Part shown: positions 12,801 to 29,345 of the stretch, piece by piece
Layout of the letters: every line of letters begins with the position of its first letter
Numbering within the stretch: position 1 is the stretch's first letter
Source: Pseudoalteromonas sp. UG3-2
GTDB taxonomy: Bacteria > Pseudomonadota > Gammaproteobacteria > Enterobacterales > Alteromonadaceae
Assembly (NCBI RefSeq): GCF_037120705.1
Contig: NZ_JAWLJU010000001.1
Coordinates: 372,001 to 436,000, forward strand
DNA: 64,000 nt
Reading direction: 5' to 3'
The notes under the pieces: model-generated
What the model was told of the DNA's origin: nothing
Database searches by the model: none
Seen by the model: the letters and a program-made list of their open reading frames with translations, nothing else
Made by a program: the position numbers and the translations under genes

Positions 12801-15800
12801 GGCACCACTACCACCGCTGATGGTGTCGTTGCCATTAAAATCGGTGGCGGTCATATTAATGGTATCACCGCTTAGTGCGCTGGCATTGAGTGTAATAGCA
12901 TTAGTAATTGCACTACCGAATGCATTAGAAATCGTAACCGCGTTACCATTGGAATCAAAGTTATCGGTCAATGAAATATTGAAGATACTGTTGGTTCCAA
13001 TCGCCAAGTTTTCGACTTCAGAGACACTGGTGTTGGCGAAGTTAAATGTGCCGCCATCCACTAGTTTTAGCGTTTCAGATCCCGCAGCACCGGTGATCGC
13101 CGAGGTGAAGTTATTTGCAACATTAGCAGCATCAATCGTCACAGTTGCCCCGCTGACCAGCGATAACGTGCCGATATTAGTAAAGCCACCACCGCTTACA
13201 TCCGCGCCATCTGATGCACTCACAGTATCGCCCGTTATAGGATCGCCTACCAACGAGCCATTAAAAGCACTGCCAGCAATATCAAACGTAATTGCATCAG
13301 TTCCAGAGGTTGCAGCTATGGTAGCCGATGCATTAGTGACCGTGATGGTTCTAGTATTGGTATTGTCATCACCTACTGAATAATTTTCTATGCCATTGAG
13401 CGTTGTAAAGTCGCCATCACCACTGATGTTTATGGTCTCTGATCCAGTTGCAGTAATAGTGCCGGTAAATGCAGCGTTCTGTACTGGCGTCATTGTGACC
13501 GAAGCACCACTGACTACTGTCAAATTAACGATATTCGCTATTGACCCGCCAGATATATTTGCTCCAGAAGACATTGATAGCGTATCAGCTGTTGTACCAT
13601 CACCAGTAAGTGTACCAGTGTATGTAAGCGTCCCAACGTTAAATGTGACGGCATCTGTTGAAGACGCAGCTGTTACTGAGGTGCCCGCATCCCCAACTGT
13701 AACCGTTCTGCTGTTAGTCGATGAGTTTCCAACCGAGAAGCTCTCGACATTAGCAAGCGTAGTAAAGTCACCGTTGCCGGTGATATTAATGGTTTCAGTG
13801 CCTGCTGCTACGATGGTGCCGCCAAATAGAGCAGGCTGAGAGGCCGTCATTGACACGGTTGCACCACTGGCCAATGTCAGATTCTCAAAATTAGAGACTG
13901 TAGCACCTGCGATACTGGCTCCAGAGCTCATTGACAATGTGTCTGTGCCACTCGAGCCGTTTAGCGTGCCCGCTGTGGTGAAAGCTCCAACATCTATGGT
14001 GTCATTGCCACTACTACCCACAATCGTCTGACCCGCAGCCCCCAAAGTGACCGTATTGGCCTGACCTAAGTAGTACACTTCAATCGCACTGGATGCGGTA
14101 AACCCATCGTTGGCAACGGCAATTAAAATGCTCTCAGTACCACTACCTGTGATTGAGCTAAAGGTGTCGTGTTGAACCTCCGTAATGGTAATTGTGGAAT
14201 TATTTTCAACTGTAAGTGTTTCAAACCCACTTATAGTGGCATTGGAGATATTAGAGCCGTTTGCCATTTGCAGCACATCAGTACCGCTACCACCTGAGAG
14301 TGTCCCGGTCGCGGTTATTGCCCCGGTAATAACCGTGTCATTGCCACTACTACCGGTAATGTTCTGTCCGGAGCTCCCCATAGTGATCGAAAATGCCGCG
14401 TCGAGTACGTATGTTTCAATGTCACTGTCAGCTGAAATAACCCCGTTTCCATCAGCGCTACTGAGCGTGAATTGATTGGTGCCTGCACCATTTATGGTGG
14501 TAAATGATTCGTGTTGAGACTCCGTCAATGTGATTGATGCGCCACTGTCGGGTGTAAGTGTCTCAAAGTTGGTTAATGAAGTAAGGTTTGCAAGATTAGT
14601 ACCCGTTGGTACTGACAATATATCTGTGCCGCCACCACCATCTGCCGTAGAGCCTGTGGTATGGCTGGCATCTACAATAGTAAGTGTTTCATCTTCGCTG
14701 GAAAAGGTAATAGCGGGTGTAAGATTAGTGCCATTGGTGGTATCAAATGCAGCTGCACTCGATGATGCCGCTGTGGTGTTGCTTACACTCACAGTTGCAG
14801 TTCGAGTTGCACTATTGGTCGAGCCATCATTGATCACAACCGTCACTGTACGCGTCGTTTCATTTGGCGTACTGGATGTGTTGTTATAGGTGACGGCTTG
14901 CAAGAAGGTAGCAACTTCGGCAGCCGTTGCAGTGGCTCCGGTAATAGAAATTGTATCTTGAAGTGTAATGTCCGACGCGCCAGACACACCCGTCAGTGCG
15001 TTTTGCGCTGCCGCTGTTACGTTTAGCCCTTCAGATGACCCATCTTGGTCATTGGTCAGTGTAATTGTTATGGTTTTTAGTGTATCACTGTCCGCTTCAG
15101 TGACCGATGCACTGCTGGCGATATTAACTACACCATTCCCCTCTGAAAAACTCACGCTGTTATCATTATCACCGGTGCCAGAGTTCAGATCAACTTCAGG
15201 TGCGGTATTGGACGTACTAAAGTTATAAGTGGTGTCGTCACTGATCCCTGTAAAGTCATTGGTAGCGGTAGCGGTATCTGTTACCGCGCCCGAGTCAATT
15301 CGTATTGCGTAAGTTCGATTACCTGTTAGGTCACTGGCTGGGTTTAAATAGACTTTATCACCTGTGTAACTTACCAAGCCCGGAGCCGGTGAAGTGGTTT
15401 CACCACCACTGTTTGCTGTAACACTAAATACGGCAAAATCGCTATTGTCTGTGACGTTGCGAATGGTGATATTACCGCTACCAAGTGCAATATTTTCATT
15501 GAAGTCAATAACGATGTCATTACTAACAGACACATTGGTTGCGTTATCCAGTGGTGTTGAGTTTGTGCTATCGAACGTAGGGGCGGTATTGTCGACTACA
15601 GCCGCTGTAAAAACAACATTTTGCAGACCGATTGAATGACCATCAGTCGAATTAGCAAAACTCATGGTAAAAGAGTTTATTACATCCCAGTCAGCTGGAC
15701 TTAACGTGGTTGTTTGGTCAGATAACTCTGGATCATTTGATGCGATGCTCACAGACGTACCGTCATCTGGAGTAAATATATAATTACCGTGATCTGCTGG

Positions 15801-16130
15801 AGGACTAAAGTTTCCTATGTCAAACTGTGTGATGCTTACTGGGGCACTAAAACTAACTGTCCAAGTGTCTGTATTTGTGGATGAGCCAAAATTAAGATAA
15901 TTGGAGTCCATCTGGATATTGTTACCCGTGCTTTGTGTCGCAGTTAAGGTAATATCATCAACGGTTAAGGTGACAGTCGGTGTTCCACTGCCCGAAATAT
16001 TGGAATTTGTAAATGTATAAGTTCCTGCCATGACACCTGAGCTAAACAGCGATGTTCCGATAAGTAATAATTTAGTACAATCACTTACGCTTTTAGCGCT
16101 AGTCAAAAACTGTTTATGATTAAAATACAT
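858..16130 (-). CDS. Giant Ig/cadherin-like repeat surface protein with GlyGly-CTERM-like segment and C-terminal outer-membrane beta-barrel
   Basis: The product is about 5,090 residues and probably an adhesin or matrix protein. The longest frame opens at 16136, but TAGGGA sits only at a workable distance from the second ATG at 16130, so that start is preferred. Visible in order: signal peptide (cleavage after VMA, about residue 35); Big_5-like Ig domain (about 185-310); a low-complexity beta-rich region; RTX-like glycine/aspartate repeats (about 1090-1130); a 14-copy Ig-like array of 104-residue units (about 1680-3140); cadherin/tandem-95 and He_PIG-type domains; an HYR domain; a Calx-beta domain; a thrombospondin type 3 stretch ([13 protein letters not shown]); a choice-of-anchor-like region; two more cadherin-like units. 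The C-terminus has a GlyGly-CTERM-like tail (GSMGG, hydrophobic, RRRK), then a signal-like segment ending ANA, then a 177-residue beta-barrel ending in phenylalanine. Ca2+ binding is inferred from the acidic repeats. Confidence 0.9.
6722..11085 (-). repeat. Tandem array of 14 Ig-like units of 312 bp
   Basis: The period is exactly 312 bp (104 residues), as seen from the recurring gatcaac at 7254, 7566 and 7878. Each unit carries [39 protein letters not shown] and a TLDN end. The first unit in protein order and the last are the most diverged; the central ones are nearly identical in DNA. Such an array is prone to recombination and copy-number change, and to assembly collapse. Confidence 0.95.
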
Positions 16131-16343
16131 TGCCATTCCCTACTAAAAACCAATTATTACTAATTTCTACAGCCGCTTTTATAACGTTACCCCAGAAATT
16201 CTGTTCTTTAGTCAGATATTGCTTATTTAACAAATCATTAAGCTAAGTAAGCAATATTTGTCTTGTAGTTTGCGGCCATTAGGCCAAACTACTACCAATT
16301 ATCTGATTCACAACTGTGAATAAATCTCTATCATGAGCTGACC

Positions 16344-16949
16344 TTAAGATCTGGGAGGATACGCTCCTTGCAATGCAATCAACCAGTTTACTGGTAAAAC
16401 CGGGTTCACGATATTTACTGGGGCGCTTGAACCAGCGGTTCCGACTACCACATTCCCACTAATCGTCCCCCCCTGAATATCAAGTCCTTGGATGTCCACA
16501 GTGTTAAAGCCCAACCCTTCCTTTACAAAAGCGGGACTCGGATTCGCACCAAAATAAGAGCTATCATCTGGCGTGCCTATGTTGGCCGTATTTGTAGCGA
16601 CTTTAAAAGAACCACTGGCAGGTTGGCTTGCTGTCTGTACAAACTGAGCGGGATGATCATGTGTTGGTAATTGCGAAAAGCTCAAGATGACATACTCTCT
16701 ACCCTGCTTAATGCCTTGTCGGTATTCTTGTCCGCCAATCATAGTGCCTTGCCCCACCGGGCTACGGCCGCGTAAGTCTGGTATGCCAAAAGTAGTGCGA
16801 GCGTCACCACCATATGTAGTCCCTACTAACGAAAAGAGTGCTTGATTTTGTGCAATTGAATAAAGCTGGCCTAAACACATCGCCCAGTTTTCAATAGTAA
16901 AAGTGCCGGCAAATGTAGACAAAGAGCCAATATACGGTTCAGTAGCCAT
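16344..16949 (-). CDS. Phage tail-collar domain protein (microcystin-dependent protein family)
   Basis: This 201-residue protein has the tail-collar signature: EPYIGSLSTFAGTF, NWAMCLGQLY, a stretch around ALFSLVGTTYGGD, FGIPDLRGRSPVGQG, and LPTHDH. The family is found in tail fibres and in stand-alone chromosomal proteins of unclear, probably extracellular or structural, role. AAGGA lies 7 nt before the ATG. No other phage structural gene is nearby, so this is not a prophage. It sits between the giant surface-protein gene and an unknown gene, all on the same strand, but gaps of 100-200 bp leave co-transcription open. The C-terminal third, rich in Gly, Val and Asn, is specific to this protein. 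Confidence 0.85.
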   Translation of the reverse strand: MATEPYIGSLSTFAGTFTIENWAMCLGQLYSIAQNQALFSLVGTTYGGDARTTFGIPDLRGRSPVGQGTMIGGQEYRQGIKQGREYVILSFSQLPTHDHPAQFVQTASQPASGSFKVATNTANIGTPDDSSYFGANPSPAFVKEGLGFNTVDIQGLDIQGGTISGNVVVGTAGSSAPVNIVNPVLPVNWLIALQGAYPPRS

Positions 16950-17084
16950 GTTAATTCCTTATCATTCTTTAATCGTATTGTGTTGCGGCAAACCTGACTG
17001 ATAAGCGCAAATAACGCTGTTACCGCAGCTTAGCGAACTATCGCCATTACTACTTAAAACTTCATACCACTTAGTCGTTCAATC

Positions 17085-17588
17085 TTACGAATCTATGTCT
17101 GGATCTGAAATTGCTTCCACTACCCCCTCGGGCCCATGGGGACAAAACACCGGGGGAATAAAAAATTCAGGCAATGACACTTTACGCGCTTCACCAGATA
17201 AGACTTTATCCAAACACACCGTACCTAATTCATTTATACTCAATTGCAATTCAGCGTCGTCCTCAGTGCTAGGGAAGCGCCAATACAGTTCAGTCGTCTT
17301 GTAGCGTAATAAGGCCATCTGTTCGAACGTGTCAAAATCAGTTGGCGTATCGCAATGCCTATCATGAATATTTTCCAATCGCTGTTGGCCCATAAACTGC
17401 ACCAACAAGTCGCCCATACCAGGGATCGCAATAACACCACATTCTCCGCTGGCTAAAGTAAGCTCACCACTCCCTTCCTTTTGAGCAACTCGAGTGGCTT
17501 TATCTGCTTCTGGGTAACAACCACCATTAAAAGGGTAGATAAGCAACTCATAATCATATCGATTAGTAAGTTTGATCTTTATGTTCAT
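17085..17588 (-). CDS. Hypothetical protein
   Basis: The product is not recognised (167 residues from the chosen start). The start at 17588 (MNIKIKLTN) has GAG 6 nt upstream and removes a Cys-rich leader that does not look like a signal peptide; the frame is open to another ATG at 17663. The protein is acidic and soluble, with no membrane segment, and ends in a Pro/Asp-rich tail (PHGPEGVVEAISDPDIDS). It lies between the formyltransferase and the tail-collar gene on the same strand. A link with the tail-collar protein is possible from position alone. Confidence 0.6.
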   Translation of the reverse strand: MNIKIKLTNRYDYELLIYPFNGGCYPEADKATRVAQKEGSGELTLASGECGVIAIPGMGDLLVQFMGQQRLENIHDRHCDTPTDFDTFEQMALLRYKTTELYWRFPSTEDDAELQLSINELGTVCLDKVLSGEARKVSLPEFFIPPVFCPHGPEGVVEAISDPDIDS

Positions 17589-17745
17589 ATCTGTCTCGCT
17601 TCTCCAGTTATAATCGAGCATAGTTGAACAACAGGATTGAAAAATATCTGGGTATGAATACATCGCTACCGCTATCGTATCCTTCGCACTAAGCTAGTTA
17701 AAAAATAGTTTGCATTACCATTTATTCAATTGATCTCAAACAAGC

Positions 17746-18690
17746 TTAAACAACATTGTTGTAATTGGTTAAATCCAATCCAGGGTCCAGTGCAAACAAG
17801 ATTGCTACCCTATAACCGTCAAATGCACCTTGTTGACACGCAACTAAATCCAATCGAACAGCACCATCGATTGTTTTTACTACCAGGCCCGCTTTTTGCT
17901 CCAACTCAATAATTGTGCCTGCACGAATGCCTCTCAATTGACTTTGGACTTTGGTAGCTTGCAACACTTGAAAAACATCTTGTCTAAACTCAAAATACGC
18001 ACTATATGACTCTGTATTTCCAGCTCTAGCCATATTCACAATATCGGTCGCGCTATGCTCTGCCCAGTTAATCATTAGATCAGACTGCTGCAGGTTTGGC
18101 GCCCGATTGATTCCCTTCCCTACTTGCTCTTGCCACCTTAAGTTCCCTTCCAGTATCCCTTGATAATATTGTGATACTAAGCTAGGCAGGGCCTGAGAAA
18201 CTTTTTGAAACAAACATTTGCTGGTGTCAAAGGGGTGGATATCTATCGCAATGTCGAGGCCAACATCTCCACTATCCAGCTCCTCAACTACCTTATGAAG
18301 CGTAAGTTTCGTTGTTATCTCACCATTTCGTAGTTGCCAATAAATTGGCTGAGGGCCTCGGTACTCAGGTAAGGGGCTTGGGTGGATATTAACCAAATCA
18401 CCATTGAAGTAGTTAATGAGTTGCGACTGTATTTTATGCCTGAAAAAATACACGAGCCCATGATTTATTTGGAGTTTATCAAACTCAGCAAGCATCGAGT
18501 CACTTGCCTGGTGACTATAGCTTAGCGTGGTAATATTATTTTGCTCCAACCAAAGTTGAAGTTGCTGCAAGTCTGGGTTAGGTTGAGCATCAACAAGTAC
18601 CACACAGCCAAGCGCGTCTTCTTGTTGTAAAAAGTGTATAGCAGGAAGGCTCAGACAGCTCCCCGTAAACACGGCAAACTTAGGTATCAT
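17746..18690 (-). CDS. Formyltransferase family protein (methionyl-tRNA formyltransferase-like)
   Basis: The 314-residue protein has the N10-formyl-THF transferase catalytic triad: Asn and His in NIHPSPLPEYRGPQPIYW and Asp in ELDSGD. A C-terminal domain follows. The N-terminus is less like housekeeping Fmt, and the genomic partner is a methyltransferase rather than def, so it probably formylates an amino group on a sugar or peptide rather than Met-tRNA; that is inference. Its ATG overlaps the TGA of the upstream methyltransferase by 4 nt (ATGA), so the two are translationally coupled. Confidence 0.8.
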   Translation of the reverse strand: MIPKFAVFTGSCLSLPAIHFLQQEDALGCVVLVDAQPNPDLQQLQLWLEQNNITTLSYSHQASDSMLAEFDKLQINHGLVYFFRHKIQSQLINYFNGDLVNIHPSPLPEYRGPQPIYWQLRNGEITTKLTLHKVVEELDSGDVGLDIAIDIHPFDTSKCLFQKVSQALPSLVSQYYQGILEGNLRWQEQVGKGINRAPNLQQSDLMINWAEHSATDIVNMARAGNTESYSAYFEFRQDVFQVLQATKVQSQLRGIRAGTIIELEQKAGLVVKTIDGAVRLDLVACQQGAFDGYRVAILFALDPGLDLTNYNNVV

Positions 18691-19940
18691 CGTTCTGCTC
18701 CCGCAACTTTAACGGGCACAAAACCAGGCAGGCCACTCAGTTGATAATAAAACTGTACTGTATCGCCGCTACTGGCAACAAAGTGGGTGTGTTCAATGTC
18801 TTTTGGTTTTAAATCAATATAGATACTGGTATCTGGCTTTGGATGGGTAATGCCGGAGTCATACTGGCCTACTTTTTCTTGCGCAAACGTCTCCACATCG
18901 GCATAGATGGCAAAAATACGCTGACTCATATCGGCAATGCCAGTGGGCAATACAATTTGATTTGCTGGGATCACTTTAACACCATCTTGTAATTCCAGCT
19001 CTTGCATGTTTAACAGTGTCGACTTATTGATGCTTAAGATTTCACCAAGCTCCACTCTGTCTTGCAAAGCGTCTTGCAACATATGCTCAGAATGACTGTA
19101 TTCAGCTTGTTTCCACTGTTGGTTAAACTCGGTTTCACCTAGCACCATCATTCCTTTTACAGAGACATTTTGTGGGATCAACCAACCGTCTAATGCCAAA
19201 AATTGCACTAAATGCTTGGCAATACTGAGCTGCCCTTCTTTGGTAAAGCCATGTTGCATGGCTTCTAGCACCAAAAGGTCGATGGCATCTTCAGGCTTAT
19301 ATTCTGTGGCATCGGCCTCTTCAATGTGCACCACAAATGAGTCCAGGTTGAGGTCGCTAACTAACTGGCGCAAAGACATGACAGCGCCAGGGTGGGCATC
19401 CACTAACACCACTTGGATCTGCTGCTTGGTGAACAATTGATGATGTAGGTAATAACTCAGTAACGGCAATAATAGCGGTGCAAATGGGCCACAGGCTGGA
19501 TAAACAATGTTTATTTGTTTTTTATTCTTGAGCATGCCACGAATAGCCTGATCTATCCCTCTTGCATAACCTTGAATGCGGTAAACATCTTTGATGGTGT
19601 GTTTGCAGTTATTTGGAGACATAATCAGCCCGGTGGCCGAAATATACTGTTTGGTTAGTAGCTCTTGTGATAACTCTGCAAACGCCATTGACTGCACTGC
19701 GTGATCATACATGCACTCAAAGGCCGTCACTAACTGCGAGTGAGTTGCTTTAGTCTCAGACAAAACCAACGACATTGTCGCAACAAAGCTCTTCTGTAGT
19801 AATTGTTGTCGTTGTGATACCGAAAGCTTAGCTTGAAGCATTGACTGCAGCTGAGTGCGAATTGAATGTTTAAGTAGGTCATCTACTTGCGGATCGATAA
19901 ACTCAGGCGCAAGTGCACCTGACTGCTTTTGTTGTTCCAC
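18687..19940 (-). CDS. Class I SAM-dependent methyltransferase, PRMT-like
   Basis: The 417-residue protein starts at GTG with GAGGGG 9 nt upstream. A helical N-terminal region of about 140 residues precedes a Rossmann methyltransferase core. INIVYPACGPFAPLLLPL is motif I, VVLVDAHPGA the acidic end of strand 2, and DLLVLEAMQHGFTKEGQ resembles the double-E loop of protein arginine methyltransferases. A beta-rich C-terminal part follows, as in that family. The substrate is unknown. It is first gene of a coupled pair with the formyltransferase, which suggests both modify one product. Confidence 0.7.
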   Translation of the reverse strand: MEQQKQSGALAPEFIDPQVDDLLKHSIRTQLQSMLQAKLSVSQRQQLLQKSFVATMSLVLSETKATHSQLVTAFECMYDHAVQSMAFAELSQELLTKQYISATGLIMSPNNCKHTIKDVYRIQGYARGIDQAIRGMLKNKKQINIVYPACGPFAPLLLPLLSYYLHHQLFTKQQIQVVLVDAHPGAVMSLRQLVSDLNLDSFVVHIEEADATEYKPEDAIDLLVLEAMQHGFTKEGQLSIAKHLVQFLALDGWLIPQNVSVKGMMVLGETEFNQQWKQAEYSHSEHMLQDALQDRVELGEILSINKSTLLNMQELELQDGVKVIPANQIVLPTGIADMSQRIFAIYADVETFAQEKVGQYDSGITHPKPDTSIYIDLKPKDIEHTHFVASSGDTVQFYYQLSGLPGFVPVKVAGAER

Positions 19941-20315: not shown

Positions 20316-21348
20316 TTATGCAGCAGGATACATGTTTATATACTGCACGACTCTGGGCTCGTCGGCGTGATTAGGGCTACTGCCATGAGGCAAAAACTGA
20401 TGCCAAACAATTAAGCTACCAGCCTTTGCCACAGTGGGCTTTACCGGCCATTTAGACCAGTTTTGATCCTGAGGGTTGCAGCCCTCGGGCAAACCTTGAT
20501 ACTAAGATTCGAGTTGGTGATGAAACCCTGGCACACAACTGAAAGCGCCGCCATCGGCAGTAACGTCATTAAGGTAAATCAAACCCTGAGTTGCAAATCT
20601 CAACGGCTTATTAAAATTGATATCCCAGTGCAGGTGAGGCCCGGGAAAGTGCCAGGTATTGGTTTCGGGTGGGTTAAAGCCCATTCTGTCGCTACTGCAT
20701 TGGAGATTATGGTTTTGCCAAAGCGCTGCAAACACTGCACGGACTTTAAGGGATTGTTTTATCTGAGTTTGGATGGCATGTTCAAAGCTTTGCACCATTA
20801 TCCCTCGCCGTTTTTCACCACCCTGATACCAAGTTTCCGGCCGTTTAGGATCAGCGTTAATCTCTTCAAATGCCAGTTCTCTGGCGGCTTGGCAAAGAGT
20901 ACTATCAATGACATTGGAGACAACGAGATAGCCAAAGTCTTGCCAATGTTGCCATTGTGACTGCGTGAGCGTTGCTGGCAATTTTTTTTACGCTACCTTC
21001 GTTACTGCTTAGCGCTTCTTTAAAGTGTGACTCCACCGCTCGATTAATGCTTTGCTTAACCGTCGCGCTTTTTGTTGTTGGCACGCAGTGAGTAACCCAC
21101 TTCTCAAACTCACTAAAGCTTTCACACGAATACAACTTACTAATAGTCGCTTCCAGGCCAACACCAAGCAGATCAGAAACCAATACAATAAGTGACCATT
21201 CCCGATTAGACTTGACGATGTTCGCACCTTGGCCTTTGTTCAGCTGAGCGCTGACAAACATCCGCTTTAGAAAATAGATCCCTGTTTCACCCACGTCATC
21301 AAAACTGGGTAAGTTTTCCACATTTATGGGGTCAACCTCAGTATTCAA
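20316..21348 (-). pseudogene. Phytanoyl-CoA dioxygenase (PhyH) family gene, broken by a frameshift and an amber codon
   Basis: A TTG at 21348 with AAAGGAG 7 nt upstream opens a frame whose first about 122 residues (including SFSEFEKWV) look like the N-terminal extension of longer PhyH proteins. At an A8 run (20982-20989, read on the minus strand) the frame changes. Removing one A would continue directly into LPATLTQSQWQHWQDFGYLV and the PhyH domain. That domain has the first Fe ligands (HWD in HLHWDINF). An in-frame TAG at 20502-20504 then interrupts it. Beyond TAG the same frame continues with WHQFLPHGSS and DEPRVVQYINMYPA, the second Fe-ligand His and the 2-oxoglutarate Arg, to TAA at 20316. 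As it stands neither piece is a complete enzyme. The unbroken pieces are 20905-21348 and 20502-20981. Confidence 0.75.
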
Positions 21349-21736
21349 ATTAAAGCTCCTTTTAGCAGACTTTTTTACGTTTATTTTGCACGCTTAGGCA
21401 TATTCTCCGGTTGTCAAAATCGATTATTAGTGATTATTTAATTCGCAACTTGAGACCAAAAGACCACACTCATTATCAGATAAAAACCGCTAATCTACTG
21501 GGTTAGAAGATGACACAAGCCTGAAACAGCGGGTATTACACTGCATTACAAGCAGCTGTCACGAAATATTCACCAAATGAGCTTTTGTACCTTTTTCAAT
21601 AAATTAGCCGCTAATTTGTACAAATAAAAAACAGACACTGTTTATTTTTTGTTAATATTAAAAATTCTCATACTAGACAACTATTTACAATCCAATTACC
21701 CTATACTGTTAACAAAAAGTAAGAATTAGTGATCGT
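21349..21736. other. Divergent promoter region between the PhyH pseudogene and the kinase gene
   Basis: The AT-rich spacer separates divergent genes. It contains TATACT at 21702-21707, about 30 nt before the kinase ATG, but no well-spaced -35. No reading frame or terminator is seen. Confidence 0.4.
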
Positions 21737-24700
21737 ATGTCTCTGACGCATTTCTCGGACCAGTATATCCTTGAGTCTTTTCAATCTGACAAGTACCAAC
21801 TCCTTGAAAAGGTTGGTGAAGGTGGATTTGGTAAAGTATTTAAAGCGCGCCAAATAAATACCGGGCAAGCGGTGGCTCTGAAATTTTTAGCGTTAGAACC
21901 ACAGCTAGAAGCGACCAAAAAACAGCGTTATGTTGAGCGATTTAACAGAGAAACCCTACTTTGTAGCCAGCTTAATCACCCCAATATCGTACGATTATTA
22001 GATAAAGGACAATTAACCGATGAGCTAATGTATGGGGTATTTGAGTTCGTTGAAGGTCAAACTCTCAGAGACGTATTGAGTCAAGACAGTGCCATGGATG
22101 CCGTTCAAGCCACCGATATCATGCTGCAAGTGCTCGATGCCCTGATCCACGCGCATCAACGAGGGGTGATCCACCGCGACATAAAACCCACTAACATCAT
22201 GCTAAGTCGCTCAGGCGCCAAAACCTATGCCAAAATTCTCGACTTTGGTATTGGCACCTTTGCCCAAGAAAGTCGCCAACATGACTTTGAAACCCTAACG
22301 CTTACCCAAGAAACCCTAGGAACCCCCTCGTACAGTGCACCAGAGCAGTTACGCGGAGAGCCCGCTTCCGCTAAATCCGATTTATATGTCTGGGGCTTAG
22401 TGTTTTTAGAATGTTTAACAGGCGTGCCAGCGGTTACCGGCTCAAGTGTGGCGTCGATTTATCACCAGCAATTAAGCGATGTGCATATTGCGATCCCAAG
22501 CGCCCTGCTTGGCCATCCACTGGCGGGGTTACTGCGCAGGGTACTTAACAAAAGTGCTTTAGAGCGTGTTATTAGTGCACCAGAAGTGTTTGCCGAACTG
22601 GCTAAAATGAATGTCGCAAACTTAGTTGGTGTACTTAAGGATGTTAAGGCTCAGCATGGCTATGATGAAACCACAGTGATGCTGCGTGATGACGACCCTG
22701 AGCACCGAGCTATTTCGGAATACACCGCCCTCACAGAGCGCAAACAGCTCACCGTGTTGGCGTTACGACTCAGTGTAAAAACACTAGACAATAGTGACAA
22801 AGATTTCGATGTTATCGATACCATTTACAAGTCACAACGCAATCACTTTATTGATATTGCCACTCGCTATGGCGCTTATCATGTGGGTAACCTTGCCGAT
22901 AGCAGCTTATTTTACTTTGGTTATCCGCTTAGCAGCGAAAACGATGCCCGGCTGTCGGCGCGAACCGCTCTGGAAATGGTCAGCGAACTGGCCAAACGCA
23001 ACGCCCTCATGCAAGAAGCGCACGGCGTGACAATAAACGCCCACATTGGTATTCATACCGGCGTCTTTATTACCTATGCTAACGCGGTTCCGGAGGGATA
23101 CCATGCCAATATTGCCACTGCACTGGCGAGAGAAGCTGGCGAGCGGCAAATCTTATGTAGTGCAGAGTCACGCTCATTACTCGACCCCTACTCCGAGTTT
23201 AACCTCTATGGCCAACTGCAGATCCCGCCTATGTTCGCACTAACGCCAGTATATAACTTAAAAGGGGAGCGCCGCGTTGAGGCCTTTGGCTTTATGCGTG
23301 GCACCAAAAGCCACAACAAGCTCATTGGCCGCCAAAATGAGCTCGAGCGTACGCTTTCATTAGTAAATACGCAAGTGACCGACACCACAAGCATTGCGCA
23401 CATTCATGGTGAAGCCGGCATAGGAAAATCAAGGTTGTTGCAAGAAATACGGGCCCATGCTTCGCACTATCAGCATTTGGTTGCGCAGTGTTTACCTGAA
23501 CATCAAAACAACGCGCTCTACCCTATGTTGACGTTGGTAAAATACCTGTTTAATACCGAATCACTTGATGCGCACTCGTCAAGCACCTTATTTGGTGAGA
23601 TACTCCAGAGTCACGCACACTCTATCGATACTGCCAAAGTCCTCCCAGTGCTGCTGATATGGCTTAATATAGAGCTGAATGAAGACATCGAGCCGTCATC
23701 GTTGCCCCCAGAAGAGCAAAAGCAAGCCTTATTTCAGGGCCTTACTGCGTTACTCTTATCGGATCGCCACGGCTTAAGCCAGTTCAAACTCTGTATTATT
23801 GAAGACATCCACTGGGCAGACAGCACCACATTAGACTTTTTAAAGTATTTCGCAGCAGAGTTAAGCTGCGGCAATGTGCTGCTAAGCACATCGAGGCAAG
23901 CCGTACCCAGTCAGCTGCAAGACCTCACTCTAGTGGATGTCTGCTTAAAAAAACTCACAGAGCAAGCCACCGAAGAGTTTATTATTAACTTGTTTGACGG
24001 CCACCAACTATCATCGCAATTACTCCAGGTGCTGCTCAGTCGCACCGATGGCATACCGCTGTTTATCGAAGAGCTGGTCAACATGCTGAAACAAAAAGCA
24101 CTAGTGGGAGATAAAGGTGGCATCGTTGACTTTTTAACGCCAGACAAACTTGACCAAGTGCCGAGCAGCTTGCGCGAATCATTGCAACAAAAGTTAGACA
24201 ACTTAACTCACGCCAAAGAAACCGCCCAGCTTGCTGCAACCATAGGTCGCGAGTTTGAATACGACTTGCTGGTAGCCGCTTCACCGTTAAGCGAAAGCCA
24301 AATCCAAAATGATTTGCATGAGTTGATGGCCAATGACCTTATCGTTCACCAACGTCGTGTTGATAATGACAGTTATATTTTTAAGCACGCTTTAGTAAGG
24401 GATGCCGCTTACAATTCATTGGCAAAAAAAGAGCAAGTTCAGACTCACGCTCATATCGCCGAAAAGCTCATTGCTTTGTATGACACTGATGAATATATAT
24501 CTGAGCTTTACAACCATTATAGTTCATCTGAACAATATGTTCAGAGCGCTGAATATGGGTATAAAATTGCCCAGTCATATTCAAGTATCGGCTCTTACAA
24601 ACTCGCTTATGAACTATTGCTGAGGTGTAAAGTAAAAGTTTCTCAAAAAGACATTGAGGCTAACTTTTTACTGTTTATAAAAATCAACTGTCTTAAAATC

Positions 24701-25603
24701 AGTTGTCTTGTTGCACTTGAAGGTTCAGGTAGCGCCGAAATATTATCATTATCTTCTTATAATCAAGCGCTTTTATCTAATTTTAATGAGGGAGCGATAC
24801 CCAGTGAGCTAACTCATTACATCCACCACATTAACTGGTCAATAATGACTTACTACCATATGACCTCTAATCGGGAAAAAGCATTGAGCCTTGCTTTATC
24901 AGAGGGAAATAATGCAAACGTCTTAAATTATTCAGATGACCAAAAACTAGTCTCATATGTTCAGGTTGCAAACTGTTTCCTGCTTGATGGCAAAATAAAA
25001 GAGTGCGAGCAATTTATCAACAAAGCACTCTCTATTTTTCAGTACGATGGTGGTCACTTTGTCGACCAGTCACCGCTTGAGTATGGTTTTTCAAGCAAAA
25101 CCTTTCTCTATATGATAAAGGCTGCGCTAGAAGCTGCCACTATCAACCCTATGGCAAAGACATCAATAGAAATAGCAATAGCTATTAGTAAAAATGCTCA
25201 AAGCCCAATTAGTGAACTCATGTCGCTAGGTTACGGTGCAATCTGCGGATATCTATTAAATGATAAAAGCTTTATTTCAAACTGTACGGAGCAAATGTCA
25301 ACACTACTTAGTAACCACCCTGACTTGGCCCACTTTTCCATGTACCTAGATATACCGCATGCTTTTATTTCTCAAGATGAAGAAAGCCTAGAAAAGTCTA
25401 TCAATGTATTATTAGACACAGGACAAACTCAATGGTTGAGTCTTTATATGTGTATGTATGTGGATATTTTAGCTAACCGTAACAAGCGAATAAAAGCGAA
25501 AGAGATTTTAAATAAGGCATTAACTTGGTGTCATGAGTCTAATGAAAAAGTGATGCAAGGAAAGTTAAGCTGCTTTGAAAAGGAGTTAGATCATGAGGCA
25601 TAA
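21737..25603 (+). CDS. Ser/Thr kinase - degenerate class III cyclase - AAA ATPase - TPR protein (TOMM-system kinase/cyclase type)
   Basis: The 1,288-residue protein starts with a complete Hanks-type kinase: GEGGFGKV at 27-34, the ATP-binding Lys at 49, HRDIKP at 146-151, DFG at 169-171 and APE in SAPEQLRGE. A nucleotidyl-cyclase homology domain (about 336-490) follows, but the two metal-binding Asp positions are missing (ALRLSV and NLADSSLFYFG in place of the usual Asp-bearing motifs), so it is unlikely to make cyclic nucleotides. An AAA/STAND-type ATPase has Walker A GEAGIGKS (558-565) and Walker B ending IIEDIHWAD. The C-terminal 400 residues are TPR-like helices. The order matches the TOMM system kinase/cyclase fusion family (about 1,300 residues), which is associated with peptide-natural-product loci. 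It overlaps the next gene by 11 nt. The membrane is not crossed. Confidence 0.85.
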   Translation: MSLTHFSDQYILESFQSDKYQLLEKVGEGGFGKVFKARQINTGQAVALKFLALEPQLEATKKQRYVERFNRETLLCSQLNHPNIVRLLDKGQLTDELMYGVFEFVEGQTLRDVLSQDSAMDAVQATDIMLQVLDALIHAHQRGVIHRDIKPTNIMLSRSGAKTYAKILDFGIGTFAQESRQHDFETLTLTQETLGTPSYSAPEQLRGEPASAKSDLYVWGLVFLECLTGVPAVTGSSVASIYHQQLSDVHIAIPSALLGHPLAGLLRRVLNKSALERVISAPEVFAELAKMNVANLVGVLKDVKAQHGYDETTVMLRDDDPEHRAISEYTALTERKQLTVLALRLSVKTLDNSDKDFDVIDTIYKSQRNHFIDIATRYGAYHVGNLADSSLFYFGYPLSSENDARLSARTALEMVSELAKRNALMQEAHGVTINAHIGIHTGVFITYANAVPEGYHANIATALAREAGERQILCSAESRSLLDPYSEFNLYGQLQIPPMFALTPVYNLKGERRVEAFGFMRGTKSHNKLIGRQNELERTLSLVNTQVTDTTSIAHIHGEAGIGKSRLLQEIRAHASHYQHLVAQCLPEHQNNALYPMLTLVKYLFNTESLDAHSSSTLFGEILQSHAHSIDTAKVLPVLLIWLNIELNEDIEPSSLPPEEQKQALFQGLTALLLSDRHGLSQFKLCIIEDIHWADSTTLDFLKYFAAELSCGNVLLSTSRQAVPSQLQDLTLVDVCLKKLTEQATEEFIINLFDGHQLSSQLLQVLLSRTDGIPLFIEELVNMLKQKALVGDKGGIVDFLTPDKLDQVPSSLRESLQQKLDNLTHAKETAQLAATIGREFEYDLLVAASPLSESQIQNDLHELMANDLIVHQRRVDNDSYIFKHALVRDAAYNSLAKKEQVQTHAHIAEKLIALYDTDEYISELYNHYSSSEQYVQSAEYGYKIAQSYSSIGSYKLAYELLLRCKVKVSQKDIEANFLLFIKINCLKISCLVALEGSGSAEILSLSSYNQALLSNFNEGAIPSELTHYIHHINWSIMTYYHMTSNREKALSLALSEGNNANVLNYSDDQKLVSYVQVANCFLLDGKIKECEQFINKALSIFQYDGGHFVDQSPLEYGFSSKTFLYMIKAALEAATINPMAKTSIEIAIAISKNAQSPISELMSLGYGAICGYLLNDKSFISNCTEQMSTLLSNHPDLAHFSMYLDIPHAFISQDEESLEKSINVLLDTGQTQWLSLYMCMYVDILANRNKRIKAKEILNKALTWCHESNEKVMQGKLSCFEKELDHEA

Positions 25604-26249
25604 CTATGTAAAGAACGGTTATATACATATTAAAAACTTCTTTAATGACGATGAATTCGATGAATTAAAAGTAATCGCAAAAAATGTCATTAAAAAGAGT
25701 GAGGGTTTAATTTATAACATTGAAGAGTTAGCTAAACTGCATGAAGTTGATAATGCAAAATTTAACTCCTACAGCCCAAGAGGGTATAAATCCGACGACC
25801 TGTTGAACTATATAGAAGATAAAATAAAAACTAAAATAGATCATATTATTAGAGAGATCTATCGTAATGACTACATAATAGAAAAAGATGCAACCCTATT
25901 AGCTTGGTATCCAGAGCGTCTGATCAAGGGCTTTACGGGCTTTCATCAGGATGGTCCAGCACAAGAAATCCCCCATGGCTACCCTCATTGCTGGCTCCCT
26001 ATCACCGAAGATCGAGCCTGCAATTTTGAACTGATCCCTAATACTCATGAACTTGGTAATTTTCCTCATAGCCATATGGGCCACTTTATAAAAGTGAAAA
26101 CAAATATCGTTGAAAGATATATTGAAAACAAACAGTCTCTACTAGTAGAGCCAAAAGATTTATTTATTTTTAATACACGACTTATGCACTGTCTAACCAT
26201 AAACCACACAAATTCAATAGCTTGGTCTATTGAATTCATTCTCAGATAA
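25593..26249 (+). CDS. Phytanoyl-CoA dioxygenase-like Fe(II)/2-oxoglutarate oxygenase
   Basis: The protein is 218 residues. AAGGAG lies 7 nt before the ATG, inside the end of the kinase gene, so translation is probably coupled. FHQDGP gives the HxD iron ligands, and the distal His is in TRLMHCLTIN. An Arg about ten residues further, usual for 2-oxoglutarate binding, is not obvious (SIAWSIEFIL), so the cosubstrate or activity may differ. The size fits a minimal PhyH domain. It lies between the kinase/cyclase protein and a small duplicated protein and may hydroxylate a partner or product of that locus. It is distinct from the broken PhyH gene at 20316-21348. Confidence 0.75.
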   Translation: MRHNYVKNGYIHIKNFFNDDEFDELKVIAKNVIKKSEGLIYNIEELAKLHEVDNAKFNSYSPRGYKSDDLLNYIEDKIKTKIDHIIREIYRNDYIIEKDATLLAWYPERLIKGFTGFHQDGPAQEIPHGYPHCWLPITEDRACNFELIPNTHELGNFPHSHMGHFIKVKTNIVERYIENKQSLLVEPKDLFIFNTRLMHCLTINHTNSIAWSIEFILR

Positions 26250-26258
26250 GGAAAAAAG

Positions 26259-26720
26259 ATGAGTAACTTACTTAAACTGCTTAGTGAAATTACGAGCAAT
26301 AAAGCAATGTTAAATAGCTTTGTTAACAATGAAAATGTACTGTTCAAAGCGTTTAACATCAGTGAGCAAACACAGGATGCTTTTAGAAAAAGTGATGACG
26401 GCCAATCTCTTTTGGCTGCAATCAAACTTGAGCTTGATGCTCATGCAGCTCCATCAAAAGTCGTTGTGAACCCAGATCACCATAGCCCAGCTCCAGTTTT
26501 ACACCTACTAGATGCCCTAGTACAAAACGAAGCGCTGAGAAGTGTATTTGTATCAAACGAAAATGGTATTCGTGATGGCGCGGCAAAAGCTTATGGCGTA
26601 AGCGATGAGCAAGCAAATACGATTGCTTCGCTAATTGAGAAAAAAGACGGCTACGAAAATGCGCTTGAGTCGGTCCTTGCTGATATCAAAGAAGAGATCG
26701 TAAAGCTTAAGACTAAGTGA
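26259..26720 (+). CDS. Small internally duplicated protein, unknown function
   Basis: The protein is 153 residues with AAGGA 7 nt before the ATG and starts 9 nt after the dioxygenase, so the two share a transcript. It has two homologous helical halves: FVNNEN at 21-26 and FVSNEN at 97-102, each preceded by a leucine-rich helix (LLKLLSEITSN, VLHLLDALVQN) and followed by a SEQ/DEQ turn. A linker (about 60-78) is rich in Ala, Pro, His and Val. The half pattern recalls Nif11/nitrile-hydratase-like leader domains and LigA-type helical subunits, which occur in RiPP precursors. No Cys and few Ser/Thr follow either half, so a classical TOMM core is absent. It may be a carrier, scaffold or substrate. 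Confidence 0.6.
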   Translation: MSNLLKLLSEITSNKAMLNSFVNNENVLFKAFNISEQTQDAFRKSDDGQSLLAAIKLELDAHAAPSKVVVNPDHHSPAPVLHLLDALVQNEALRSVFVSNENGIRDGAAKAYGVSDEQANTIASLIEKKDGYENALESVLADIKEEIVKLKTK

Positions 26721-26935
26721 TCAGAACTCGGTATAACAACTTGCTCTCTAGCAGCTGTTATACCCTACTACTGCGTTAAATTTGCATGCTGAGGCCGGCT
26801 ATTGACGCACTAACTTGCTTTTTCTTAGGCAATAACTTCTAGCTAGATTGACAATATAATTTTGAGCTTATGGATTTTAGTTGATTGATTAACTTTTTAC
26901 CCCATGCTCAGGTTAAATAATAAAGATAGGGCCTA

Positions 26936-26961
26936 TATTAGGCCCTATTTTCACTTTAAGA
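26936..26961. terminator. Bidirectional intrinsic terminator
   Basis: ATAGGGCCTA and TAGGCCCTAT form a 10-bp stem with a 3-nt loop followed by TTTT on the plus strand. It lies between the converging 153-residue protein gene and the YcaO gene and can serve both. Confidence 0.75.
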
Positions 26962-26987
26962 CTATGCTTAATGTTTGTAGAGGCTTT

Positions 26988-29165
26988 TTAGGCTAACTTT
27001 CCTCGCGCCGCATGAAGCTTCTTATAGCTATCAATCAAGCGTAGGTGTTTATCCAACCCTTCAAGTTGCATATTGGTTGGAGTCAGGCCATAAAAACGCA
27101 CATCGCCATTAATGGAGCCAATCACGGCATCCATCACCTCTTGTCCAAACATACGCGTAAAATTATGGATATAGTCTTCTATTTCAAGCTCTTCATCCAA
27201 AGCCACTTCCAACGTGGCGTGCATGGCTTGATAGAATAGGCCACGTTCAACCGTGTTATCGTTAAACTGTAAGAAGGTTTCCACCAGTTCAATGGCCGCT
27301 TCAATGTCGCCTAGTGCCAAATAGATTAAGATCTTAAGCTCTAGAATGGTAAGCTGACCCCACACGGTGTTTTCATCAAACTCCACACCGATTAGGGTAA
27401 TAATATCGATGTAGTTATCGAGCTGACTTTCTTCCAAACGCTCCACTAAATTAAACAGCGCTTCGTCATCGAGGGAGTGAATATTGAGAATGTCTTCACG
27501 GTATTGCAATGCTTTATTGGTGTTATCCCAAATTAAGTCTTCCGCAGGGTACACTTCTGAGTAGCCCGGCACTAAAATTCTGCACGCCACCCCTAAACCG
27601 GTAAATTCGGCCACATAGGCTTCTTTTCCTAAGTCTTTTAGAATGCCAAAGAGCTTGTCACACTCTTCTTCGTTGCTGCCGCTAAAGTCCCACTCAACAA
27701 AATCATAGTCGTGTTTAGCACTGAAAAAGCGCCATGAGATCACCCCGGTTGAATCAATAAAGTGTTCAACAAAGTTCTCTGGTTCCGATACCGCCATGCT
27801 GTTAAACGTGGGCTTAGGCACATCGTTTAAGCCTTCGAAGCTGCGGCCTTGTAACAACTCGGTTAGACTGCGCTCCAGTGCTACCTCAAAGCTTGGGTGA
27901 GCACCAAATGAGGCAAACACGCCACCGGTTTTCGGGTTCATTAACGTCACACACATCACAGGGAATTGACCGCCCAATGAGGCATCTTTCACTACCACAG
28001 GAAAGCCTTGTTCTTCTAAGCCCTTAATGCCTTCAACAATGCCCGGGAATTTCGCCAACACCGACTCAGGTACATCTGGCAGCACAATTTCTTGTTCGAT
28101 AATTTGCTTTTTCACCGCCCGCTCAAAGATCTCAGATAAACACTGTACTTTCGCTTCAAACAAATTATTACCGGCACTCATACCATTACTTAGGAACAAG
28201 TTTTCAATGAGGTTGGATGGGAAATACACGGTTTCACCGTCGGAGTGGCGAGTGTAAGGAATGGAGCAAATACCACGCTCAATATTACCTGAGTTAGTAT
28301 CAATCAGGTGTGAGCCGCGTAACTCGCCTTCTGGGTCGTAAATTTCACGGGTGTACTCATCTAAAATTCCAGACGGTAAGGCATCGTCTGCGCCTGGCTT
28401 AAACCACTTTTCATTGGGGTAATGCACAAACTCTGCGTTAGCGATTTCTTCGCCAAAGAACTGATCGTTGTAAAAGAAGTTACAGTTTAAGCGCTCGATA
28501 AATTCGCCCAATGCCGAGCACAGTGCACTTTCCTTGGTTGCGCCCTTGCCATTGGTAAAGCACATTGGCGAAGCAGCATCACGAATATGTAACGACCAAA
28601 CGTGAGGCACTATGTTACGCCACGAAGCCACTTCGATTTTCATGCCTAAATCGGCCAAGATCTGGGTCATGTTGGCAATGGTTTGCTCGAGCGGTAAATC
28701 TTTACCTAAAATAAAGGTGTTATCGTTCTCGTTGGTGTCGACCATCAGCATCGCTTGAGCGTCGTCATCAATGCTCTCTACCGCTTCTACCTGAAATTCA
28801 GGGCCGGTTTGGACCACTTTTTTAACGGTACAGCGGTCGATGGAACGCAAAATTCCCTGACGGTCTTTATCAGAGATACTTTCCGGGAGCTCTACCTGAA
28901 TTTTGAAGATTTGATTGTAACGGTTTTCCGGATCAACAATGTTGTTCTGCGCCACGCGAATACCGTCGGTTGGAATATCGCGGGCATTACAGTACACCTT
29001 TACAAAGTAAGCTGCGCAAAGTGCTGAAGAAGCTAAGAAATAGTCAAACGGGCTTGGCGCTGAGCCGTCGCCTTTATAGCGAATTGGCTGATCTGCAATG
29101 ACAGAAAAGTCGTCAAATTTGGCATCAATTCTGAGATTGTCGAGGTAATTTACTTTGATTTCCAT
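26988..29165 (-). CDS. ycaO: OsmC-YcaO fusion protein, probable RimO accessory factor
   Basis: The 725-residue protein joins an N-terminal OsmC-like peroxidase domain (about 1-170) to a full YcaO domain and helical C-terminus like E. coli YcaO. OsmC-type cysteines are present in SALCAAYFV and IDRCTV. YcaO motifs include CFTNGKGATKESALCSALGE, FIERLNCNFF, GICSIPYTRHSDGETVYFP and NGMSAGNNLFEAKVQCLSEI. E. coli YcaO (586 residues) helps RimO methylthiolate ribosomal protein S12; this longer form is known in marine gammaproteobacteria. The start at 29165 (MEIKVNYLDN) is where the OsmC domain begins; an upstream GTG at 29225 adds 20 poorly structured residues. The C-terminus lacks the PxPxP motif of azoline-forming YcaOs. 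Confidence 0.9.
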   Translation of the reverse strand: MEIKVNYLDNLRIDAKFDDFSVIADQPIRYKGDGSAPSPFDYFLASSALCAAYFVKVYCNARDIPTDGIRVAQNNIVDPENRYNQIFKIQVELPESISDKDRQGILRSIDRCTVKKVVQTGPEFQVEAVESIDDDAQAMLMVDTNENDNTFILGKDLPLEQTIANMTQILADLGMKIEVASWRNIVPHVWSLHIRDAASPMCFTNGKGATKESALCSALGEFIERLNCNFFYNDQFFGEEIANAEFVHYPNEKWFKPGADDALPSGILDEYTREIYDPEGELRGSHLIDTNSGNIERGICSIPYTRHSDGETVYFPSNLIENLFLSNGMSAGNNLFEAKVQCLSEIFERAVKKQIIEQEIVLPDVPESVLAKFPGIVEGIKGLEEQGFPVVVKDASLGGQFPVMCVTLMNPKTGGVFASFGAHPSFEVALERSLTELLQGRSFEGLNDVPKPTFNSMAVSEPENFVEHFIDSTGVISWRFFSAKHDYDFVEWDFSGSNEEECDKLFGILKDLGKEAYVAEFTGLGVACRILVPGYSEVYPAEDLIWDNTNKALQYREDILNIHSLDDEALFNLVERLEESQLDNYIDIITLIGVEFDENTVWGQLTILELKILIYLALGDIEAAIELVETFLQFNDNTVERGLFYQAMHATLEVALDEELEIEDYIHNFTRMFGQEVMDAVIGSINGDVRFYGLTPTNMQLEGLDKHLRLIDSYKKLHAARGKLA

Positions 29166-29345
29166 TGGAAAAGTCCGGTGTGTTGCAATCGAAAACGCTA
29201 ATTGTACTTGAGGATGGATGGCCACGCCAATGCTAGTTTCGATAATGCTAGTTTACAGTTAAGTAATGGCGCAAGCTGGCCACAATATAAGAGCCCCTCG
29301 CGCCAAATAACATGCGCAAACACAAAAAGCCATAAAGGGAGTCAC

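Follow-up and report, generated by a model that had tools for sequence, protein, structure and literature searches.

Large serine/threonine kinases accompany some clusters for thiazole/oxazole-modified microcins (TOMMs); to our knowledge their function is not known, and none was found for them in the open-licence literature of PubMed Central (PMC). A 64,000-nucleotide stretch of the genome of Pseudoalteromonas sp. UG3-2 (contig NZ_JAWLJU010000001.1, positions 372,001 to 436,000; the whole stretch is called the window, and its numbering is used below) raises the question of what such a kinase does when its gene is followed by genes for an oxygenase and a small duplicated protein. Comparison at the sequence level showed a constant kinase/pseudocyclase/AAA module and, after a sharp boundary at about codon 895, an exchangeable block. 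The parts of the locus are as follows.

21737-25603, plus strand: TOMM_kin_cyc kinase gene, 1,288 residues (TIGR03903, Pkinase, AAA_16)
21737-24421, plus strand: codons 1 to ~895 of the kinase gene, the constant part, with Ser/Thr kinase, degenerate cyclase and AAA_16 ATPase domains
24422-25603, plus strand: codons ~896-1288 of the kinase gene, the exchangeable C-terminal third, with TPR matches below cut-off
25593-26249, plus strand: PhyH-type mononuclear iron oxygenase, 218 residues (PF05721), with an 11-nt overlap with the kinase gene
26259-26720, plus strand: small protein, 153 residues, two tandem helical domains, proposed substrate, 9 nt after the oxygenase gene
26259-26441, plus strand: domain 1 of the small protein, residues 1-61, borosin-binding-domain-like
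26442-26492, plus strand: flexible linker of the small protein, residues 62-78, proposed modification segment (Pro65 at 26451-26453)
26493-26717, plus strand: domain 2 of the small protein, residues 79-153, homologous to domain 1
24412-26991, no strand: the exchangeable block as DNA (blastn of the window against L059, L063, L106 and L094)
26988-29225, minus strand: OsmC-YcaO gene, ribosomal S12 type (TIGR03549, 1495.7 bits)

An initial annotation of the window, made from the letters alone, had given the kinase 1,288 residues, an 11-nt overlap with a minimal oxygenase, and a 9-nt gap before a 153-residue protein, and its coordinates were exact; the oxygenase has 218 residues. Using a sample of 108 Pseudoalteromonas genomes and a TIGR03903 threshold of E ≤ 1e-100, we found the kinase in 50 genomes at 67 places including the window, and the 66 other loci were fetched. 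Clustering of the neighbour genes, from which our cassette labels come, assigned the cassettes after 66 kinases to YcaO-type (30), CxxCH-type (29) and oxygenase-pair (7) kinds.

Nine of the kinases occupy the same site as the window kinase, with the OsmC-YcaO gene as neighbour, and all nine carry CxxCH cassettes (L056, L058, L059, L063, L094, L100, L103, L106 and L107). Up to the change point they were 83-84% identical to the window kinase (70-73% at residues 500-700 and 80-89% elsewhere to residue 850), and past residue 950 the identity was 11-19%. Over that last region the kinase of L053, which has the same cassette as the window, kept 92-94% identity, while L052 and L061, with the same cassette at other sites, had 52-62% past residue 950 and 52-69% before it; for the exchangeable third, the values were 93% with L053 and 59-61% with L052 and L061. 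Among all 167 kinase pairs with an N-part identity of at least 80% and a C-part identity below 40%, the median change point was residue 895, with 154 pairs at 890-899 and five below 700. In the DNA, blastn homology of the window to L059, L063, L106 and L094 stopped at 24409-24411 and restarted at 26986-26992, at the end of the OsmC-YcaO gene, and homology to L053 was unbroken over 21640-29239. The break points therefore define 24412-26991 as one exchangeable block holding the kinase C-terminal third, the oxygenase and the small protein. Searches of open-licence PMC turned up no description of this block or of a TOMM_kin_cyc kinase with an exchanged C terminus.

We then compared 66 of the 67 kinases in 2145 pairs, the 500-residue fragment L077 being dropped and L078 and L079 holding no kinase. 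The identity of the C-part correlated with that of the cassette with an r of 0.78 (partial Mantel test, 0 of 2000 permutations), compared with an r of 0.22 for the N-part, which fell to a partial value of 0.07 given the C-part. Cassette identity was below 20% in none of the 81 pairs with a C-part identity of at least 40%; conversely, C-part identity reached 40% in all 39 pairs whose cassettes are at least 60% identical and in 32 of the 47 whose cassettes are 40-60% identical. Two of the C-part exceptions reach a cassette identity of at least 50%, namely L104-L055, whose genes in common are the neighbouring pair C50/C51, and L084-L051. Homology between C-parts (E < 1e-4) was detected in 20/21 dioxygenase-dioxygenase, 45/210 dioxygenase-YcaO and 0/203 dioxygenase-CxxCH pairs. 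These results indicated that, as far as sequence goes, the C terminus of the kinase tracks the cassette and the N terminus hardly does so; since the C-terminal third changes with the cassette, it is likely the recognition part.

Adjacent DNA travels together anyway, and thus the correlation shows matching of kinase and cassette, not yet function. The kinase could be functionally unlinked to its neighbours, its C-terminal third and the cassette moving jointly only because they lie side by side in an island that recombines between conserved flanks. Homology restarts at the conserved OsmC-YcaO gene, so homologous exchange between the flanks would suffice, and the oxygenase pairs without a nearby kinase at L078 and L079, the pair that terminates a YcaO-type locus in L051, and the unrelated C-parts of L084 and L051 beside similar cassettes all agree with such a view. 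Linkage accounts for joint transfer, however, and not for a kinase third that diverged alongside, and as much as, the cassette; the concentration of change points at codons 890-899 and the lack of pairs combining similar C-parts with dissimilar cassettes also speak against it. We regard a kinase without any functional tie as rather unlikely.

The distribution of the three genes revealed which of them form the stable unit. The oxygenase occurred in 10 of the 108 genomes. Eight of these 10, and no other genome, have the duplicated small protein, with gaps of 9-31 nt between the two genes; the other two oxygenase genomes (L097, L104) have instead a single-domain protein of 98 or 90 residues, 14 nt away, which scored only 52% against the joint domain profile. 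A TIGR03903 kinase was present in 10/10 oxygenase genomes compared with 50/108 overall (p = 2.7e-4, uncorrected for kinship), and it lies directly upstream of 7 of the 10 pairs, that is, of 7 pairs for the 66 kinases of the genus. At L051/L109 the pair stands at the far end of a long kinase/YcaO locus, and at L078 and L079 no kinase lies within the fetched 16 and 20 kb, both genomes having kinases on other contigs. The pair maps to 9393-10593 in L079, between genes recognised by eye as glyS/glyQ and gyrB, and to 6450-7639 in L078. The initial annotation had treated the three genes as one unit, and this stood for the oxygenase and the small protein, which adjoin in 10/10 cases, but not for the kinase, since only 7/66 kinases precede the pair and 2/10 pairs have no kinase nearby. 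Because the adjacency is constant and the kinase variable, the stable unit is the oxygenase with the small protein, and the kinase joins it via its exchangeable C-terminal third.

We also looked for a spread of the two genes beyond the genus, and only Pseudoalteromonas appeared among the named matches. The oxygenase was found in 4 of 390 sampled genomes of the family, all 4 in Pseudoalteromonas; a contig scan, made with a pair of short peptide patterns, turned up 4 loci, each of them in this genus; and protein searches gave 9 small proteins, of which all 6 with organism names were from Pseudoalteromonas, and 5 oxygenases, all from Pseudoalteromonas.

As for the kinase itself, it matched TIGR03903 (TOMM_kin_cyc) with 787 bits at a curated cut-off of 705.75, Pkinase with 167 bits and AAA_16 with 61 bits, both above the Pfam gathering threshold (GA), and it carries AVALK, HRD, DFG and Walker A/B-like motifs. 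Guanylate_cyc remained below its GA of 21.9 bits (14.9 with the whole protein, 19.9 with a fragment), as did the TPR matches of the C terminus (Pfam TPR_8, E 0.0046), and inspection by eye showed no metal-binding Asp at the positions that we presume to be those of active class III cyclases. Thus, the kinase/pseudocyclase/AAA/TPR architecture proposed in the initial annotation was recovered, with its cyclase and TPR parts below threshold, and the TOMM association that it had assumed is borne out by the 30/66 relatives in the genus that adjoin YcaO/TOMM cassettes. We take TIGR03903 to be the family of the large Ser/Thr kinase in the description by Haft and colleagues in 2010, the text of which does not carry the accession.

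The oxygenase matched PF05721 (PhyH) with 22.4 bits, just over the GA of 22.0, and its putative iron ligands H118, D120 and H199 (codons 25944-25946, 25950-25952 and 26187-26189) are invariant in an alignment of nine sequences. Its AlphaFold2 model (predicted local distance difference test score, pLDDT, 80) has the double-stranded beta-helix and HxD...H triad of PhyH and other 2-oxoglutarate (2OG)-Fe(II) oxygenases, and its fold matches in the PDB were proline hydroxylase H11, ColD, EctD, GriE and PtlH, the structures of H11 being the best. The earlier description of a minimal PhyH-type oxygenase agrees with family match, length, fold and ligands. TIGR04324, the sole NCBIfam oxygenase family matched, scored 29.5 bits at a cut-off of 150.

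The small protein had been called duplicated, and its halves are truly similar: they aligned locally with a score of 65, the mean for shuffled sequences being 25.5, and 0 of 2000 shuffles attained that score (0/2000 for L053, 5/2000 for L061 and 19/2000 for L052 in the same test), and the profile-profile probability between them was 96-97% compared with 0.3-0.7% for reversed decoys. It gave no Pfam or NCBIfam match at E 1, and so was not assigned to a known unrelated family, the outcome that the initial annotation had named as adverse to its proposal. The predicted structure consists of two five-helix bundles and a flexible linker (pLDDT below 50 at residues 63-73). Domain 1, in keeping with the five-helix-bundle leader of SonA-type borosin precursors, resembles the folded leader, or borosin binding domain (BBD), of SonA; the profile of domain 2 reached only 13% against a SonA fragment. 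Of the suggested likeness to leaders of ribosomally synthesized and post-translationally modified peptides (RiPPs), the resemblance of domain 1 to the SonA leader thus remained and an NHLP identity did not: no NHLP, NHLP-Burk or Nif11 family hidden Markov model matched at E 1, and profiles of the NHLP-type precursors of the genus, those of the YcaO cassettes (clusters C14, C15 and C28), gave at most 0.8%. Nor does the protein have the Cys/Ser/Thr-rich core of TOMM precursors, as it is without Cys and ends in ...KLKTK.

P65 and P79 are two of the seven invariant columns among 10 small-protein sequences. Identity in the linker compared with domain 1/domain 2 was 72 versus 80/72%, 70 versus 57/52% and 82 versus 63/60% in three subgroups, a conservation that is suggestive only. 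Among the window, L061 and L052, the nonsynonymous distance (dN) was 0.128-0.183 for the small protein versus 0.227-0.275 for the oxygenase, synonymous distances being mostly saturated. As its leader-like domains enclose a short segment with Pro and the kinase has TOMM relatives, the small protein might give rise to a secreted RiPP-like peptide in oxidised form, its linker core being cut out between two leader domains. The block has no protease or exporter gene beside its three genes, however, and within the subgroups the linker shows conservation and not variability; we consider a secreted product very improbable.

Further evidence came from the sister cassettes. A gene-by-gene scan was made of one YcaO cassette, that of L101, and showed an Amidohydro_2 and a PhyH protein together with a YcaO protein, the last scoring 194 bits with the SagD model at a cut-off of 219. 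Precursors of these cassettes end in Cys, Ser or Thr in 26 of 31 cases (C14, C15, C28); one of the two scanned with NCBIfam (L102) matched TIGR03795 over cut-off, and that of L084 matched NHase_alpha over the Pfam GA. The YcaO cassettes of L050, L051, L064 and L082 also hold an asparagine-synthetase-like protein (cluster C41, Pfam-confirmed for L051). The CxxCH cassettes (for example L059, L106, L094 and L041) encode a protein of 440-570 residues bearing the CxxCH motif (33/33 genes of more than 400 residues, 29 loci), the one scanned having no Pfam match. Of these 33 genes, 32 adjoin a 60-280-residue protein with a C-terminal Trp, belonging to several families, against a background of 34/665 open reading frames of these loci, counts that are not independent because many loci are closely related. 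The CxxCH cassettes are possibly a system that modifies C-terminal Trp. One of their small-protein families, C11 (12 proteins), gave probabilities of 94-96% against domain 1 and the joint profile of our small protein, 48-82% against domain 2 alone, and 0.1-0.7% for decoys. Outside the genus, relatives of the kinase adjoin YcaO or CxxCH genes. A relative of an FHA-domain protein lies near 9/12 of the kinase loci there (L150, L151, L152, L154, L155, L157, L158, L160 and L161), with FHA confirmed for L152.

Taking these observations together, we reasoned that the locus may be one variant of a modular kinase-linked modification locus, in which the small protein undergoes oxidation guided by its leader-like domains and a kinase matched to the cassette reads or controls this step; we hold this tentatively, with a probability of about 0.43. 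The oxygenase would dock on the helical domains of the small protein and oxidise a residue in the linker, with the invariant Pro65 and the residues next to it as the foremost candidates. Whether or not it carries the modification, the small protein would then be recognised by the kinase through the C-terminal domain that matches the cassette; via its AAA and kinase domains, the kinase may convert the state of the small protein into a phosphorylation signal or phosphorylate it. We propose docking and oxidation because the two genes are paired throughout, because the fold is leader-like and because of how the sister cassettes are laid out, and reading by the kinase because of co-divergence only.

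Several findings weigh against this proposal. At the position that we presume to be that of the canonical 2OG-binding Arg, about 11 residues past the distal His, 0/9 aligned oxygenases have Arg or Lys, so a 2OG dependence is not claimed, and the absence of this PhyH Arg is the main chemical doubt about the proposed oxidation. A basic residue (Lys or Arg) at position 167 in 8/9 sequences (L097 has Gln, with Lys one residue earlier) might stand in for it. L084-L051 is a true counter-example to matching, as the YcaO cassettes are similar and the N-parts 99% identical with no match between the C-parts. Finally, of the several small-protein families that end in Trp, C11 alone shows a relationship to the helical domain.

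Alternatively, the small protein could serve the oxygenase as a regulatory subunit or helical cap, the true substrate being a small molecule or another protein; LigA, for instance, caps the LigB dioxygenase. This rival is a real one because, according to PMC8429565, structural homologs of the BBD cap dioxygenase active sites. It would also fit the constant pairing, the low divergence of the small protein with no variable core, and the absent Arg, a hint of an atypical active site to which a partner protein could add the missing part. Two domains and a conserved flexible linker would be superfluous for a cap, however, and C11 relatives occur with different genes in the CxxCH cassettes, where Trp ends adjoin 32/33 genes, which is better explained by a substrate. 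We judge a cap to be unlikely, although to be taken seriously.

The locus might also belong to a polymorphic kinase-scaffolded protein-modification system, in which recognition third, enzyme and substrate are swapped as a block among at least three chemistries (YcaO, CxxCH/Trp and PhyH) and BBD-like docking modules occur outside borosins in at least two cassette kinds. This wider idea is speculative, and we rate it a possibility on the doubtful side. The changing C-terminal third gives a handle on the TOMM-associated kinases, for which binding tests become direct, and the Trp-ending proteins of the sister cassettes point to further unexplored chemistry.

Among the neighbouring genes, the OsmC-YcaO gene was rejected as a cassette partner, being of the housekeeping S12 type and on the opposite strand; it is the sole YcaO gene nearby, in agreement with the earlier remark that the unit lacks a cyclodehydratase. 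The same gene stands beside a CxxCH cassette, as the DNA homology shows, and behind the YcaO-type locus L051/L109. A second PhyH-like reading frame (20502-20981, minus strand) has an in-frame stop with the frame open again beyond, and is probably a pseudogene in this strain. On the minus strand at 16344-19940 lie genes for a phage tail collar domain protein, a 192-residue protein without an assigned family, and formyltransferase-like and methyltransferase-like proteins, and some of them have relatives that precede the kinase gene in strains whose cassettes differ; the methyltransferase-like gene (18687-19940) matched general methyltransferase models only, below GA. A 5,092-residue frame (858-16136, minus strand) encodes bacterial Ig-like and cadherin-like domains and has a long open frame opposite at 7405-10641. 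Scans for promoters and terminators gave numbers close to chance (16 against 12.8 expected, and 3 against 4.4).

Compared with known systems, the locus is closest in its kinase to the NHLP-Burk TOMM clusters of Burkholderia, Delftia and Acidovorax, beside which a large Ser/Thr kinase is described by Haft et al. 2010 (PMC2887384). The same kinase family is matched over cut-off, and paralogues in the genus adjoin YcaO genes, one with a TIGR03795 precursor. The present block differs in having an oxygenase and a helical protein, with neither a SagD-kind YcaO cyclodehydratase nor a Cys-containing core, and in a kinase C terminus exchanged with the block, which the accessible part of PMC2887384 does not describe; in that of the TOMM survey PMC4603692 the word "kinase" does not occur. 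With the PhyH-type hydroxylases (trans-3/4-proline hydroxylase H11, PtlH, EctD and human PhyH) the oxygenase shares fold and HxD...H ligands, and differs from them in lacking the canonical 2OG Arg (9/9), in its dedicated protein partner adjoining it and in its length of only ~218 residues. From the sporadic carbohydrate cluster oxygenase TIGR04324 it is set apart by a score far under the cut-off and by a block without a carbohydrate gene.

The split borosins SonM/SonA of Shewanella, as presented in PMC8429565, are alike in placing a five-helix-bundle leader-like domain and then a flexible segment beside a presumed enzyme. There the BBD of SonA supplies most of the binding to its enzyme, linker and core coming after it, and that paper states that no other RiPP class was known to have a leader of this kind. 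The present enzyme has a PhyH-type oxygenase fold rather than being an alpha-N-methyltransferase, which in the borosin pathway is beside or fused to the precursor, and its partner carries the segment between two helical domains with no C-terminal core. A BBD-like domain beside another enzyme class would thus extend the docking principle of borosins.
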